IMG/VR virus record: IMGVR_UViG_3300021138_000016
Coordinates: 1 to 64,000 of that record
Source: a virus
Length of the DNA stretch: 64,000 bases
Reading direction: 5' to 3' (one strand)
Shown piece after piece: positions 24,247 to 55,463 of this stretch (position 1 is its first letter; the number at the start of each line of letters is the position of its first letter). A program made the position numbers and the translations under genes. The notes under the pieces were generated by a model, which was not told where the DNA came from, ran no database searches, and worked only from the letters and a program-made list of their open reading frames with translations.

Positions 24247-24639
24247 TTAAAGTGATTCTATTAAGTTGGAATATTCAATCCAATCAACCCCACATTCTGC
24301 TGCTAAAAGCATTTCTATTGCTGTACTTTGCAAGTGCTGTTTTCGGTAAGGGGCGTTGTGTCTAAATCCGTTTTCAATATCATCTGTCATTGTACCAATT
24401 TCTTTTGCTTTTTCACAATAGGCATCCCAATCTGTTATTTCTTTTTCGCTGATATTATTAGCCTCGCAAGTAAGCACTTCGAATAATTCGTGAATAGCAA
24501 TTAATGATTCTTTCTTTTTATCCCCCAACTCTGCAACTAAGATGTTCAAAACGCCATTTGCATCATAGAAATAATCGCCCACGTCATTATTTCTGATTTT
24601 GCTTTTATCTACTGACTTAATATGTATTTCTAGTGCCAT
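24247..24639 (-). CDS. Small zincin-like protein with HExxE motif, 130 aa
   Basis: I-A-I-H-E-L-F-E (residues 47-54) gives an H-E-x-x-E pattern. The family ending follows (A-P-Y, H-L-Q-S-T-A-I-E-M-L-L-A-A-E-C-G-V-D-W). I have seen this layout (HELxE, then WD, then APY..H, then GVDW..Y) in uncharacterised phage proteins. A metallohydrolase role is possible but unproved. It lies between the giant virion-protein gene and the ATP-grasp gene. Confidence 0.58.
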   Translation of the reverse strand: MALEIHIKSVDKSKIRNNDVGDYFYDANGVLNILVAELGDKKKESLIAIHELFEVLTCEANNISEKEITDWDAYCEKAKEIGTMTDDIENGFRHNAPYRKQHLQSTAIEMLLAAECGVDWIEYSNLIESL

Positions 24640-46430: not shown

Positions 46431-47405
46431 TTAATAAAATTGGTTTTGATTATTGCAATTACAATTTAGTATGTCTTGCATTATTTTTATTTGGGAAGAA
46501 GCATCTTGCCCTATTGATTCCAATGCTTGTGCTATTGCCAAAGGTACAGTTATTTGTTGTAGTTTCTGATAGGCGTTTTGTCCTATTGCATTATTACAGT
46601 TAGCCTTGTATATTTCTTGTTGTTGAAGTATGCAGCATATAACACTTTGTACTGCATTATTACAAGTAACGTCATAAGGCTGATTGGTATAATAAGAAAC
46701 CAATACATAAGTATCTGTCCCAACTAGATAGGTAGCAGTAGTCGTGTTCACTATCCTAAATTCCCCCGAAACAACAGAATTATTTACAAAGGGGGTAAAA
46801 GTAAATGGAACGGGAGAAATAGTACCTACGGGGTAATATAATTCACCCGAAACCACTTTACTTGTAGGAATGGTGTTTTGATAGAACAACGGCGTAATTT
46901 CTGTAACCGTCAATGCGTTTGTTTGGCAATTAGGCGTAATTGTGAAAGCCCCCTGTGAATATCCCGTAGATAAAAACAAAGGCGGTTTACTTACCGTTGC
47001 TACCATTGGTGTAGTTTGGTAAATAGTGCCATCTTGGTCTTTTATCGCCCCTTGAATAATATAATCTTGAAATAAGAATGGGTAATTAACAGAAGATAAA
47101 TCTAATGTAAATGTACTTTCCCCCATATATACAGGTTCGTTATCTGTACTTGGGTGTGGGATTTGTGGGCTTGTCCAATTATAAGACAAAAGAACTATCC
47201 CCGAACTATCTTGCAAGGAAAAGCAAATACCCTGTACATTCAAAGCCCCACCACTCTTAAAAATAGTAAGTTGTGAAATATCAAATACAACTACCCTATT
47301 AAGTATGTCAAAAGTAGTTGAAAACCCAAATTGGGATATATTAGGAGAATCTATTTGTACTTGTGGCACTTGTGTTAATTTTTGCTGTAAAATAATAAAG
47401 GGCAT
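46431..47405 (-). CDS. Virion protein, 324 aa, with start codon inside a hairpin
   Basis: N-terminal ~190 residues are beta-rich and immunoglobulin-like in texture (V-D-S-P-N-I-S-Q-F-G-F-S-T-T-F-D). The C-terminal ~100 residues are helical with Cys pairs (V-I-C-C-I-L-Q-Q-Q, N-C-N-C-N-N-Q at the end). A head-tail or decoration role is inferred from neighbours. The ATG is locked in a 9-bp hairpin (47398-47423), which may limit its translation or transcription. Confidence 0.52.
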   Translation of the reverse strand: MPFIILQQKLTQVPQVQIDSPNISQFGFSTTFDILNRVVVFDISQLTIFKSGGALNVQGICFSLQDSSGIVLLSYNWTSPQIPHPSTDNEPVYMGESTFTLDLSSVNYPFLFQDYIIQGAIKDQDGTIYQTTPMVATVSKPPLFLSTGYSQGAFTITPNCQTNALTVTEITPLFYQNTIPTSKVVSGELYYPVGTISPVPFTFTPFVNNSVVSGEFRIVNTTTATYLVGTDTYVLVSYYTNQPYDVTCNNAVQSVICCILQQQEIYKANCNNAIGQNAYQKLQQITVPLAIAQALESIGQDASSQIKIMQDILNCNCNNQNQFY

Positions 47406-47423
47406 CCGAAATTAGATGCCCTT
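47398..47423 (-). promoter_or_regulatory. Hairpin covering the start of the 324-aa gene; possible attenuator
   Basis: AAGGGCATC/GATGCCCTT form a perfect 9-bp stem with an 8-nt loop. In the minus-strand transcript the 3' arm contains the AUG of the next gene and is followed by a U-rich tract (UAUUAUUUUA). It could act as a partial intrinsic terminator after the capsid genes and as a translation block. Confidence 0.6.
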
Positions 47424-47461
47424 CAAATCTTTTCGGGAATTACTAGCGTAATATTTTAAGA

Positions 47462-50635: not shown

Positions 50636-51670
50636 TTATTTACCAAAACGCTCCCTTGCGGCTGCTATTTTTCTGTTACTTTCTTCTAAAGCATCTGCAT
50701 CAAATTTCCTTACAGGGGGCTGACCGCTTTGTTGTGTTCCAAAAAGGTTTTCTGCACCTATTGTAGAACCGTTTTTTACTCCTATACCTTTACCCACTTC
50801 GTAAGACCTATTAACTACCCTATCGTAGTTGTTCAATTTGATAAACCCTTGTATTTTAGATGCTATCTTTTCTTTTACTGCATCACGGCTATCTTTATTT
50901 GTAAGGTATTGGTATAGTGTCTTTTCGTTTTTGAAGGACTTTTCAATTTCCTTCTTTTGTTCCTTAGTCAATTCTATATCAATATCTACATCTACTTCGC
51001 CGTCTTTTACTTTTGCTACTAACTTATCTGTTACAGTAGTTTCAATTATATCGTCAATGAACTTATTAAATGCGGGGTATTCTGTTCTTAGGGTTTTGTT
51101 TTCATCGTATCTGCTTTTTGCAGTACCAAACTTTTCTTCAAGTGGCTTTCTTAATTCTGCTGCTTCTTTTGCAATCTTTTGTTCCCAACGTGCTTTTTGT
51201 TTGTCATTAGAAGCATTTAGGTGGTATTCTTCTTCAAAGTCTTGCTTTGCTTGTTCCCTTGCTTCTTTTGCATCGTAATCGGGATTTTCTTCTTGCCAAG
51301 CCTTCAAGTAGTTTTCAAAAACCAAGTCTGTATCTGATTTTGATTTTAGACTTTCATAGGTGTTAATTTCTTCAACCCCCATTATATCTTCGTCAGTAGA
51401 AAACTTAATGAAATCCGCTTTTTCTTTTTCTTGTTCCCTCTTTATTTGTTCGGGGGATTTGCTTGTTTCTTTTACTTTAGCAAAATATTCGTTTGCCGCT
51501 TCAATACTATCAAACCCCCACCCTTTTATTACATCTTCGCTAAAAGTAGGTTTTACTACTTCTTGTGGTTGTTCTGCGACTATTGGTGTTTCTACTATTT
51601 CAGTAGTACTGCTGCCGTTACCGCCTTCCCCTTCTTCTGTATTATAAAAAAAACGACTTTTAAAAAGCAT
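50636..51670 (-). CDS. Scaffold-like protein, 344 aa
   Basis: Highly charged, helical and coiled-coil-rich, with almost no aromatic core outside two short regions. This is typical of phage scaffolding proteins and of their place just upstream of the capsid gene. The acidic linker (E-E-G-E-G-G-N-G-S-S) lies near the start. I place the start at ATG 51670 rather than the longest frame (51865). The extra 65 residues are unlike the rest, Cys-rich, and would run through the promoter and first gene of the plus cassette. No protease triad was seen. Confidence 0.62.
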   Translation of the reverse strand: MLFKSRFFYNTEEGEGGNGSSTTEIVETPIVAEQPQEVVKPTFSEDVIKGWGFDSIEAANEYFAKVKETSKSPEQIKREQEKEKADFIKFSTDEDIMGVEEINTYESLKSKSDTDLVFENYLKAWQEENPDYDAKEAREQAKQDFEEEYHLNASNDKQKARWEQKIAKEAAELRKPLEEKFGTAKSRYDENKTLRTEYPAFNKFIDDIIETTVTDKLVAKVKDGEVDVDIDIELTKEQKKEIEKSFKNEKTLYQYLTNKDSRDAVKEKIASKIQGFIKLNNYDRVVNRSYEVGKGIGVKNGSTIGAENLFGTQQSGQPPVRKFDADALEESNRKIAAARERFGK

Positions 51671-51696
51671 ACATTTGTTTAAATGATTACACAAAG

Positions 51697-51729
51697 TTGG
51701 TACAGTTTGTAATTTTAATACTATCTTTG
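51697..51729 (+). promoter_or_regulatory. Promoter of the plus-strand cassette
   Basis: TTG at 51697-51699 and TATCTTTG at 51722-51729 with a 22-nt spacer match the Bacteroidota consensus. Transcription would start about 12 nt before ATG 51748. The element lies just outside the scaffold-like gene. Confidence 0.65.
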
Positions 51730-51747
51730 TCGGACATAAATTTTTAT

Positions 51748-51975
51748 ATGTCAGATACAACGCCCCGTAGGATATACCTAAGAGTAAGTGAATTTGAATG
51801 GAGGAAGTTTCAAAGACTAAAAGACAATGGCATTGGCGCAAGAGAGATTTTTGAAATAATATCAAATCAATGTTTATGCGAAAAGTGCAATAAGATAGAA
51901 ATGGTTGCGTTTAATAAAGAAAATGGAGAACCTATAATAATCCCCAATAAAATTTTAACTAAAAGAAATAGATAA
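51748..51975 (+). CDS. Cassette protein A, 75 aa (RHH-like with CxCxxC)
   Basis: I use ATG 51748; the longer TTG frame would begin upstream of the transcription start. P-R-R-I-Y-L-R-V-S-E-F-E-W-R-K-F followed by a Gly-turn helix (G-I-G-A-R-E-I-F-E-I-I-S) resembles a ribbon-helix-helix DNA-binding domain. C42, C44 and C47 (C-L-C-E-K-C) form a small metal knuckle. It may regulate the cassette or late genes. The RHH reading is a pattern impression. Confidence 0.55.
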   Translation: MSDTTPRRIYLRVSEFEWRKFQRLKDNGIGAREIFEIISNQCLCEKCNKIEMVAFNKENGEPIIIPNKILTKRNR

Positions 51976-52193
51976 TGAAAATAGAAATAGAACAAGCAGA
52001 ATACGATAAGCTAAAAGAAAGAATAGCTTGTTTAGAAGGGGATACCCTTATTTATAAAATGAAAATAGAGGCATTAACTAAAAAGTATGAATTTATTTAC
52101 AAAAATGCTTCTGAAAATTTAAAGAACAAAGTAACTTTTGACCGACAATTTATCCCAAGTTTTAGTGACATTTTTAAAGCATTAAAAAGATGA
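51975..52193 (+). CDS. Cassette protein B, 72 aa coiled coil
   Basis: Starts in a TAATG overlap with protein A. Residues 1-50 form a Lys/Glu heptad helix (Y-D-K-L-K-E-R-I-A-C-L-E-G), likely dimeric. The tail ends in a small Phe/Ser-rich segment. It overlaps protein C by 4 nt, so the three are translationally coupled. Unknown function. Confidence 0.6.
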   Translation: MKIEIEQAEYDKLKERIACLEGDTLIYKMKIEALTKKYEFIYKNASENLKNKVTFDRQFIPSFSDIFKALKR

Positions 52194-52882
52194 AAAAAGC
52201 AATAGAACTAGCAAAGAAGATAACTCTTAATATAGGGGTAGATAATACAGAACTACTTACTGATTACAACTTCCACAAAATATTTGAGCCTATATTAGAA
52301 ACAAGCGAACCCCACTTAATAAAGAACACCCTTATAGCAGCAATAATATATGGCTATGACAATGATAGTAAATGGATAGATACTAGACTAGATGGGATTA
52401 CTAACAATAAAAACATCCTTAAAGGTTTAAATGCTGACTTTAAAAACCCCACTTTAATAGAGTTTATAAACTTACAGCACGAACCATCTTTAGAATGTAT
52501 TGGGAATTTCTTGGATAGACTACCTGACTGGCGTTTTCGCCACATAAGGCGTTTGTTAGATTCTTATACTACTACTATGAATCAAGCATCCCCCGATGTT
52601 TCAGAAGTTGATGCCGAAAAAGTTGCAATGGTTTTTGTTAATTGGGGGAAAGCAATGGAATCTGCAAAAAGACAAATGTATGATTCACAAGAAATGCTTA
52701 AAGAGATTGAACGTGATTATCTAGCAACTAACTCTAAAACAGAAAGTGATTTGGGAGAACCATTTACAACCAAGACATTACAAATGTTTGAAGAAGAAAA
52801 TACAAAACGAGATGCAATGAGTTGGAATCAATACGTTAGAACCGTAGTTATTCCTAAAAGAAAAAATCCCCCTATTGTATAG
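52190..52882 (+). CDS. Cassette protein C, 230 aa
   Basis: An all-helical protein with no recognised domain. It includes I-A-A-I-I-Y-G-Y, W-R-F-R-H-I-R-R-L-L-D-S-Y and a long C-terminal acidic helix (E-M-L-K-E-I-E-R-D-Y), then a basic end. It converges on the portal gene with an 11-bp overlap of 3' ends inside a shared terminator. It is not a typical virion protein. Possible roles are late regulation or superinfection exclusion; neither can be shown from sequence. Confidence 0.6.
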   Translation: MKKAIELAKKITLNIGVDNTELLTDYNFHKIFEPILETSEPHLIKNTLIAAIIYGYDNDSKWIDTRLDGITNNKNILKGLNADFKNPTLIEFINLQHEPSLECIGNFLDRLPDWRFRHIRRLLDSYTTTMNQASPDVSEVDAEKVAMVFVNWGKAMESAKRQMYDSQEMLKEIERDYLATNSKTESDLGEPFTTKTLQMFEEENTKRDAMSWNQYVRTVVIPKRKNPPIV

Positions 52883-52897
52883 GTGGGAGTTTTTTTC
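52868..52897. terminator. Bidirectional terminator shared by the cassette and the portal gene
   Basis: CCCCCTAT/ATAGGTGGG (one bulge) forms a hairpin with a T7 run to the right and a T6 run to the left on the other strand. It covers both stop codons (52880-52882 plus, 52872-52874 minus). It insulates the cassette but would also cut the portal message from the scaffold and capsid genes unless antitermination occurs. Confidence 0.68.
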
Positions 52898-55418
52898 TTT
52901 GTTCCGCCTCTGCCTCTAATTCTGCCTTTGTTTTTGCTTCTTGCTGACGGTTATTGCCTTTTTGGTCTATTAATTGTGATTGTGATAGTGTCTTTAATTG
53001 TGCAATAAGTTGTTGAAGTTCCATCTTTATTTTACCTTCTTCATCAACAAGTGCTATCTTGCTTTGTGTTTGCGCTTGTAACATCATCATTGCTGATTGT
53101 TGTTGTGCTTGTTGCATTTCTAAAGCCCTCTGATGTTGAAGTTCCTCAAAATCGCTTTTCTTTTTCTCCATCTTATTTGCAGCGATAACCATTAATACTG
53201 CACCATACTTGTAGTTTTGTTGTATTGTATCTACTATTAATTGCACGTCTTGGGTTTCTATCTTACCATCCCTTAACATCTGCATTGCCATATTGATAAA
53301 GAAATCTGTTTTGGCTTTAACATCCTCTAATGAAACTGTTAGTGCCAAATCTTCGGCTTCGATTCCTTCAATACTGTCTAATAAAGAAGCGTTTGCAATA
53401 CCAATGGCACTTGTTAGTTCTTCCCACCTTTGTTTAAAGCCATATTTTTTCTTTTCTTTAATCATTGCTAATATATGCTGTACACATCTTTCCCCATACA
53501 TTATTAGCATTTCCCTACAAGCCTTTTCCATAAACCATATACCTTCATTAGCGGCGTTTAGTTGGGATGTTATTGATTGCTCATTTTGTCTTGGGGCAAT
53601 TTGACCTAAAGAAGCATCAGTAGCGGATAAAGCAACAGTCATTTGGTCGTATAATTGCATCATTACTTTTAAGTAATTTTCTGCTTTATCCAAATGTTTT
53701 GTATCTATTGGGACAAATAACTTAGAAGGGTCGTTTACTACTACATTACCGTTTTTGTCTCTGAATTTAAGCCAAGCCATACCGCTTTGTCTTAGCATCT
53801 TCCATTGTTCCATTGCCGCATCGTATCCATTATTCCCAGATGGCTTATCTTCATCTACGTTGCCTATGTTTTTAGAGTTCGCTTCGTCTGCCACATTCAA
53901 TAACCCACTTATCAAATCCCAATCCATTGCCAACCCTGTCATATCTTGTACTATACAGTTTTGGAATTTATGCCATAAAGTATTTATTTTAGGCATATAG
54001 GCTTGTTTAATATCCATATAAGATGGTCTTTCTACATCTTGCCAAATAACAAGTGTACTTTTAGCGTATCTCATATCAATACCATATCGGTACATATCAA
54101 TATCTTTTTTCATATCGAAAATGTACTGCGACTGCCAAGCCCAATCTGTTTGTTGGTTATTTTGAAGCCTATCTCCGGGCGGTGGGACATAATAACAACT
54201 GTACCAAGTGTTGTATATCCTTTGCCTTTTTTCTTCGCTATCTGTTTCGGGAATCCAATTAAGAGGTTTTGGTTGCCAAGTCTTTATTTTATCATTAACC
54301 AATTTTTCGGAAAATGATTCAGCATCTTGTGTAAGTATTGAAAAGAATCCTACTTGTATAAAAGCATTACTGCCGCTAACTCCCCCTGCTTTGGAGTAAC
54401 TCATATTGTGACCTGCACCTTGAACCTTATTTAGTTCAAATACTTCTTTCAATTGTTCGTCTGTAAGTGTTTCACCAAACCTTCTTACAAATTCTGCAAA
54501 GGTTATTAGTTTCTGATGATACCAAAATACAATATCTTCCCCGTTATGCGTTTTAAAGGGGGATGTAAACAATTCTGTTGGGTCTATGTATTCTACTGTA
54601 CCCCTACCGTTAGTTTCATCCGTGTACCATCTGCCACAAGCCCGATTAAAGTTTTTTATATCTCTATTGAAGTCTTGGGATATTATTCTCCACTTATTAA
54701 GGTTTATTAAATAGTGTTCTATACCTAATTCAAAAGCTAATTCAATATTCCCCCTGTAAATGTAAGATTGATATAAGGCAAGTGTTTGGGAATCGTTTAT
54801 TTGTGATTTTATGTAATCTAAAACCCCACTTATCTTATCTTCCTTTAAAGTAACATCCTTATCGTCCGATTTTTTACCGCCTTTTGTTGCTAATGATGCA
54901 GCATATTTATATGGGTCTTGGCTTTCTGATAGTGGGGACATATTTAATTCAACCAAAACGTGATTGATTATATCCCTAAATAAATGCTGATAGATTAACT
55001 TGTCTTTTTCTTTCTGCCTTTGCATTTTGGCATACTTATCTATTTCGTTTACTTGTATTTTGTTTTCAATCCCAATTTTATCTAGTTTTGCTAAAATGAT
55101 ATTATCTAAATGTGCGTCTATGGGGTTTGCCTTAAAATCTGCCGAAAAATAAGATGCAGTACCACCGCCGCCTTGTGGTGTTTTAGGGTCAATGATATTT
55201 ATATACTCTTGTTTGTTTAATTCTAGTACATCTAGTTTTCTGTAAATTTTTGCTTTTTTGGGGTCTAAAAACCTAGAACTATTTTTTTGTGCATAGAATA
55301 TGGCTTGTGCTAACCATAACTTAGATAGCTTTAAATCTTCGGGAAAGAAGTTTAAATCCGACCAAAATAAGGTTATATCTTTAACTTGGGGCGTGTTCGT
55401 AATTTTTGGCTTTGCCAT
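52872..55418 (-). CDS. Portal protein, 848 aa
   Basis: By position (after the large terminase, before scaffold and capsid) and build this is the portal that docks the packaging motor. Its helical wing/stem region contains Y-K-P-like basic segments. The C-terminal ~130 residues are a Gln-rich coiled coil (E-M-Q-Q-A-Q-Q-Q-S-A-M-M-M-L-Q), as in portal barrels. The middle has L-S-A-T-D-A-S-L-G-Q-I-A-P-R-Q-N-E-Q-S, a typical portal loop. Its length exceeds most portals, matching large podoviral ones. Confidence 0.72.
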   Translation of the reverse strand: MAKPKITNTPQVKDITLFWSDLNFFPEDLKLSKLWLAQAIFYAQKNSSRFLDPKKAKIYRKLDVLELNKQEYINIIDPKTPQGGGGTASYFSADFKANPIDAHLDNIILAKLDKIGIENKIQVNEIDKYAKMQRQKEKDKLIYQHLFRDIINHVLVELNMSPLSESQDPYKYAASLATKGGKKSDDKDVTLKEDKISGVLDYIKSQINDSQTLALYQSYIYRGNIELAFELGIEHYLINLNKWRIISQDFNRDIKNFNRACGRWYTDETNGRGTVEYIDPTELFTSPFKTHNGEDIVFWYHQKLITFAEFVRRFGETLTDEQLKEVFELNKVQGAGHNMSYSKAGGVSGSNAFIQVGFFSILTQDAESFSEKLVNDKIKTWQPKPLNWIPETDSEEKRQRIYNTWYSCYYVPPPGDRLQNNQQTDWAWQSQYIFDMKKDIDMYRYGIDMRYAKSTLVIWQDVERPSYMDIKQAYMPKINTLWHKFQNCIVQDMTGLAMDWDLISGLLNVADEANSKNIGNVDEDKPSGNNGYDAAMEQWKMLRQSGMAWLKFRDKNGNVVVNDPSKLFVPIDTKHLDKAENYLKVMMQLYDQMTVALSATDASLGQIAPRQNEQSITSQLNAANEGIWFMEKACREMLIMYGERCVQHILAMIKEKKKYGFKQRWEELTSAIGIANASLLDSIEGIEAEDLALTVSLEDVKAKTDFFINMAMQMLRDGKIETQDVQLIVDTIQQNYKYGAVLMVIAANKMEKKKSDFEELQHQRALEMQQAQQQSAMMMLQAQTQSKIALVDEEGKIKMELQQLIAQLKTLSQSQLIDQKGNNRQQEAKTKAELEAEAEQRKKLPPIQ

Positions 55419-55463
55419 TAATAAAAAATTTCTACAAAATTAGAGATATTTTTGGTAGTTCCA

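Follow-up and report, generated by a model that had tools for sequence, protein, structure and literature searches.

We found that a viral DNA stretch of 64,000 nucleotides (the window; positions 1 to 64,000 of IMGVR_UViG_3300021138_000016, a record of 78,142 bases) harbors a three-gene cassette that is likely an inserted unit. The retention of its first and third genes, termed A and C, in the nearest relative, the empty or variable junctions of other phages at the same site, the fixed spacing of two conserved sequence blocks and a terminator all favor this reading. The best explanation, which includes the coupling of gene A to an operator and to which we give about an even chance, is that the cassette is a moron-type unit at a transcription-unit boundary that is older than the split from the nearest relative and has been kept since.

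The cassette comprises three overlapping ORFs on the plus strand, encoding A (51748-51975 from its ATG; 75 aa), B (51975-52193; 72 aa, charged and probably helical) and C (52190-52882; 230 aa). It is flanked by two leftward genes, a scaffold-like gene (50636-51670, minus strand; 344 aa) and the portal gene (52872-55418, minus strand; 848 aa), and these coordinates and strands bear out the original prediction of a unit that runs against the direction of its neighbors. The overlaps of 1 nt between A and B (TAATG) and of 4 nt between B and C (ATGA) make the claimed translational coupling of the three genes plausible. The 3' ends of C and the portal gene overlap by 11 nt, and the stops of both genes are covered by a bidirectional intrinsic terminator (inverted repeat I1, 52857-52900, both strands; hairpin arms 52857-52872 and 52885-52900). 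Its folding z-scores on the two strands were -4.3 and -4.0, with none of 200 shuffles as strong, in line with the predicted terminator. The GC content of the cassette is 0.317 compared to 0.343 for the genome, and 19% of same-size windows are equally low; an origin-like repeat array of the SPP1 oriR type was not found in the cassette. A further strong hairpin is located at 47396-47425, between genes for 198-aa and 324-aa proteins; it contains the start codon of the 324-aa gene and could act either as a terminator or by sequestering that start.

The portal gene was identified by a profile match to the portals of relatives (99.6%, E 7e-25), the scaffold-like gene by synteny and a moderate profile match to the relatives' scaffold genes (E 6e-5), and TerL by its match to a terminase PHROG. 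The capsid gene showed weak homology in the profile comparison (E 0.0065) and was identified mainly by gene order. The portal and TerL proteins have distant relatives only among phages of Flavobacteriaceae and related records, namely Elemovirus, Pervagoviridae, Pachyviridae, Maribacter phage Panino, and one environmental podovirus record. The head module is oriented leftward, and a separate rightward replication operon lies past 67,980. The first gene of this operon encodes a 75-aa HTH-like protein (record 67980-68207, plus strand; L010 7980-8204), directly upstream of which a -7 box, TATGTTTGCATTT, is kept in both cassette phages. Leftward glycosyltransferase- and methyltransferase-like genes, assigned by eye from their translations, occupy the interval (59262-64395) that separates the head module from the early region.

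The synteny of relatives, proposed earlier as a check for insertion, was assessed at the portal/scaffold junction. The gene order common to the relatives is GroES-like, TerL, portal, scaffold, capsid. In elemoA, phi38:1, Calle_1, Panino, and ctfjg026, five distant relatives, the portal gene directly adjoins the scaffold gene, and in Gundel_1 additional same-strand genes follow the portal gene. The four Pachyviridae, whose portals are at least 99% identical, carry differing cargo at the junction: two reverse-strand genes in phi13:2, one in phi46:3, a 37-aa reverse ORF in phi18:3, and an HNH endonuclease in phi19:3. Neither A nor C was detected anywhere in the ten related phage records, junctions included. 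Since the junctions are empty or differently filled across relatives, cargo, including reverse-strand cargo, turns up repeatedly at the portal/scaffold boundary. Pachyviridae also possess a second reverse-strand cassette past the capsid genes, in which variable genes lie behind an identical 74-aa winged-helix-like lead gene (L008 25996-26220, L017 19403-19627, and L022 19120-19344, all minus strand).

A single contig, IMGVR_UViG_3300021139_000007, came up in the pattern scans, whether these were built on C, A, capsid, or TerL; such collection scans rest on exact short peptide patterns, and distant homologues may therefore be missed. The cassette in this relative is alike in site, orientation, and gene order. 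The two phages share 52% identity in A and 69% in C, compared to 44% in TerL, 42% in the portal, 46% in the capsid, and 30% in the scaffold. The B slot of the relative is occupied by an unrelated 55-aa membrane protein with two hydrophobic stretches, so that A and C form a conserved core with an exchangeable slot between them. Because this is the one carrier relative, the phylogenetic depth of the cassette is poorly sampled. No recognisable terminator was found between C and the portal gene of the relative. The same interval contains an HNH endonuclease-like ORF (L002 8678-8983, minus strand; phrog_3377, E 5e-24) with its own TATATTTG box and an N-terminus that appears short. Taken together, the moron-like character proposed for the cassette holds in a broad sense, because the unit has its own promoter box and terminator, lies on the opposite strand, and is absent from the junction of distant relatives. 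A recent or unstable insertion is unsupported, because both A and C are kept in the only relative found and the conservation of C exceeds that of the capsid genes.

Across the whole genome pair, the identity of C was topped only by that of a leftward 130-aa protein (85%, the highest in the genome pair; window 24247-24639, minus strand), for which no PHROG or Pfam match was found. The four-fold sites of C were identical at 24 of 39 positions, exceeding the pooled 206 of 480 of the flanking genes (p 0.03), and identical-codon use was borderline (p 0.07); the case for recent horizontal transfer of C was considered weak and was not adopted. The conservation of C is higher than usual for a moron, which is a point against the best explanation. 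It suggests an alternative in which C is not cargo but a conserved protein of morphogenesis or packaging, its reverse orientation being incidental, as the gene is located in the head module and its 69% identity compares with 41-46% for portal, TerL, and capsid. We consider this unlikely, since C is missing from the junction and was not detected elsewhere in the ten related phages that share the head module, and since it lies on the opposite strand, has a promoter and a terminator of its own, and shows no similarity to virion PHROGs.

The C protein is soluble, predicted to be helical and devoid of hydrophobic segments; its AF2 model has a pLDDT of 49. No family or structure match was obtained in PHROG, Pfam, NCBIfam, PADLOC, or PDB, where A likewise had no match, in agreement with the original prediction that the products are unlike anything known. 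The hits of C in Pfam, NCBIfam, PADLOC, and PDB to Spatacsin_C, NOV5WD8W, HORMA, and nuclear elongation and deformation protein (E 0.008-1) were attributed to chance. The pattern scan of the genome_contigs and plasmids collections revealed no relatives of C, and a candidate second relative, L025 (48% identity over 33 aa), was also a chance match on an unrelated contig lacking a C ORF.

We think that A is a small DNA-binding protein, assigned as RHH by pattern only. Its pattern is that of a strand, RRIYLRV, followed by two helices. In the alignment with the single relative, R8, Y10, and R12 are invariant and positions I9, L11, and V13 are hydrophobic, and a poor AF2 model (pLDDT 49) places helices at residues 15-26 and 31-38. 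The protein also contains a CxCxxC cluster of three invariant cysteines and a basic tail. No RHH family profile matched A in Pfam, even at E values up to 10, or in NCBIfam, PHROGs, and PDB sequences. Of the predicted RHH/zinc-knuckle assignment, the RHH-like part is thus kept as a tentative reading, whereas the zinc knuckle (CX2CX4HX4C) is not supported, only CxCxxC being invariant and no histidine occurring at the required spacing. The small RHH-like lead gene with a larger coupled gene behind it and a palindrome in the promoter would also suit a toxin-antitoxin or superinfection-exclusion unit, in which A serves as an RHH-type antitoxin and repressor and C as the toxin or exclusion protein; the two-helix membrane protein in the B slot of the relative resembles some exclusion proteins. 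This reading appears very unlikely to us, given that C has no toxin fold or family match and no hydrophobic segments, that the middle gene can be exchanged, and that no sign of lysogeny was seen, an integrase being absent among the 35 non-virion proteins scanned.

The promoters of the locus were assessed using TAnnTTTG, the flavobacterial sigma-A -7 consensus (PMC9723704). The -7 box of the cassette promoter, TATCTTTG (51722-51729, plus strand), conforms to this consensus, and TATATTTG is found at the corresponding place in the relative. Of the consensus promoter originally proposed, TTG-N22-TATCTTTG starting at 51697, the string is present and the -7 box is retained; taken by itself the pattern is weak, with 32 genomic hits where about 20 are expected, and the assignment of the TTG is not upheld. 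This TTG falls within a 12-nt block (51689-51700) that is better explained by the -7 box of the leftward scaffold promoter. The block, ACACAAAGTTGG, contains on its other strand CAACTTTG (51692-51699, minus strand), probably the -7 box from which the scaffold/capsid genes are transcribed leftward; this box is kept in the relative, and its first base is C where the consensus has T. We also considered the TTG at 51697 as an in-frame start of A, as the reading frame is open and in phase in both cassette phages. It is less likely than the ATG at 51748, because the conserved nucleotides keep their distance to the scaffold box and not to A, and because TAnnTTTG boxes fall within the stretch.

A second conserved block, TTGTCGGACAT, contains the palindrome TGTCGGACA (51728-51736), a candidate shared operator that is unique in both genomes. 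Both blocks of the pair ACACAAAGTTGG-N26-TTGTCGGACAT are found only once in each cassette phage, with a spacing of exactly 26 nt, and when the two intergenic regions were shuffled 3000 times, no shuffle matched the pair; IMGVR_UViG_3300021139_000007 was the only contig found when IMG/VR was scanned for the pair. The distance from TTGTCGGACAT to the ATG of A is 20 nt in the window and 29 nt in the relative, whereas the distance to the scaffold box is constant; a link of TTGTCGGACAT to the scaffold promoter is therefore more likely than one to the translation of A. The two blocks are best read as a putative promoter for leftward scaffold transcription and an operator-like palindrome that would also cover the cassette start. 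If both boxes are assumed to lie at -12 to -5, sequence arithmetic places TGTCGGACA over the cassette start and at about -45 relative to the scaffold start, with the predicted starts 47 bp apart in the window and 42 bp apart in the relative. A single RHH dimer is able to recognise a short spacerless palindrome, and TGTCGGACA therefore fits an RHH-type site; being short, this palindrome could belong to another regulator. From this arrangement we infer that the cassette and scaffold promoters may be coupled.

The original prediction held that the terminator splits late transcription between the portal and capsid genes. On the virion strand, a TAnnTTTG box was detected just upstream of the scaffold gene in elemoA, phi38:1, Calle_1, Panino, ctfjg026, and the four Cellulophaga Pachyviridae, and none was detected for the scaffold of Gundel_1 in the gaps examined. 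In both cassette phages, the portal gene also has such a box 23-24 nt 5' of its start (window 55395-55450). The terminator is thus most likely not the cause of the split, since the scaffold promoter box exists with or without cargo and the relative has no hairpin. As the scaffold has its own box in lineages with and without cargo, the split is most likely ancestral and older than the cassette.

Under the best explanation, the cassette would have been inserted where the portal unit meets the scaffold-capsid unit, at a time before the two phages diverged. Early in infection, a host sigma-A-type polymerase would transcribe A-B-C from the cassette promoter, and the terminator would keep the cassette and portal transcripts from colliding. 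A would then bind the palindrome at the cassette start, about -45 of the scaffold promoter, and repress the cassette. Because both promoters are packed within about 50 bp, bound A may favor the capsid promoter by making the overlapping scaffold promoter more accessible. C would act as the effector, with B as an accessory that can be swapped; the strong conservation of C would also fit a role in host transcription or the assembly machinery. There are precedents in phi29 p4, one regulator for early and late promoters (PMC3100819), and in AmrZ, an RHH protein that represses itself and activates another promoter (PMC3325190). A stronger version, in which a compact early/late switch resides in the intergenic region and the single operator of A both shuts its own promoter and turns on the capsid operon, strikes us as fairly improbable. 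If true, it would mean that an acquired insertion became the timer of virion gene expression, and that A and C were therefore kept and the spacing from operator to scaffold promoter fixed.

As for the function of C, counter-defence is the most natural guess, because the layout is acr-aca-like. A full alternative of this kind, in which C (and B) would counter a host defence while A, as an autorepressor, shuts the unit off after an early burst of transcription, is possible, although we doubt it. It would account for the DNA-binding-like small gene, the inverted repeat in the core promoter, the exchangeable small gene, and the cassette's own promoter, as in acr-aca operons (PMC9410906), and the Pachyviridae opposite-strand cassettes similarly combine the invariant 74-aa lead gene with variable small genes. 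However, the cassette proteins matched nothing in PADLOC defence models, NCBIfam, or Pfam and include no known Acr or HTH Aca; the Aca families reviewed are HTH proteins usually encoded downstream of acr genes (PMC9410906), whereas A comes first and is not HTH; and the strong conservation of C is unusual for arms-race genes.

Regardless of its function, A and C have been kept through a divergence that left the portal and capsid proteins at 41-46% identity, and they represent two protein families with relatives detected in this phage pair only. The portal/scaffold boundary is a clear place to seek further cargo. We found little literature on the transcription programmes of Bacteroidota phages, and the shared site, if it is a real operator, would show phage cargo built into late-gene timing in this group.

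Compared with known systems, the cassette matches the broad moron concept and is set apart as a variant by running backward, by sharing its control region with the capsid promoter, and by two families without relatives. Autonomous cargo at the portal/capsid boundary is known from the lytic phage SPP1, in which three moron genes are bracketed by transcriptional signals (PMC6316719); a backward-running unit that shares the control region of the main capsid promoter is different. The SPP1 morons (ORFs 8-10 with oriR) are alike in comprising three small genes with transcription signals at this boundary of the head module. Their proteins are unrelated, and the cassette differs in running opposite to the head genes, in its RHH-like lead gene, in a promoter that overlaps the scaffold promoter, and in lacking origin-like repeats. 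The Pachyviridae cassettes (Cellulophaga phi13:2 gp102-103, phi46:3 gp097, and phi18:3 gp102 and gp106-111) similarly consist of reverse-strand small genes at the portal/scaffold junction or past the capsid genes, immediately upstream of a TAnnTTTG promoter on the virion strand, but they have no sequence similarity to A, B, or C, and their content turns over despite near-identical portals. The acr-aca operons share a promoter of their own with an inverted repeat, a small DNA-binding-like regulator, and swappable small genes, whereas in the cassette the regulator comes first and is RHH-like instead of HTH, and neither a known Acr nor a defence-related protein was matched. P22 Arc/Mnt and AmrZ have the strand-helix-helix pattern tentatively assigned to A and the alternating Arg/Tyr/Arg seen in RRIYLRV of A, which differs by its lack of an RHH profile match and by the extra CxCxxC and basic tail. 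In phi29, one regulator, p4, serves closely packed early and late promoters, as in the mechanism proposed here, although p4 is an unrelated protein and the putative cassette switch is known from sequence footprints alone.
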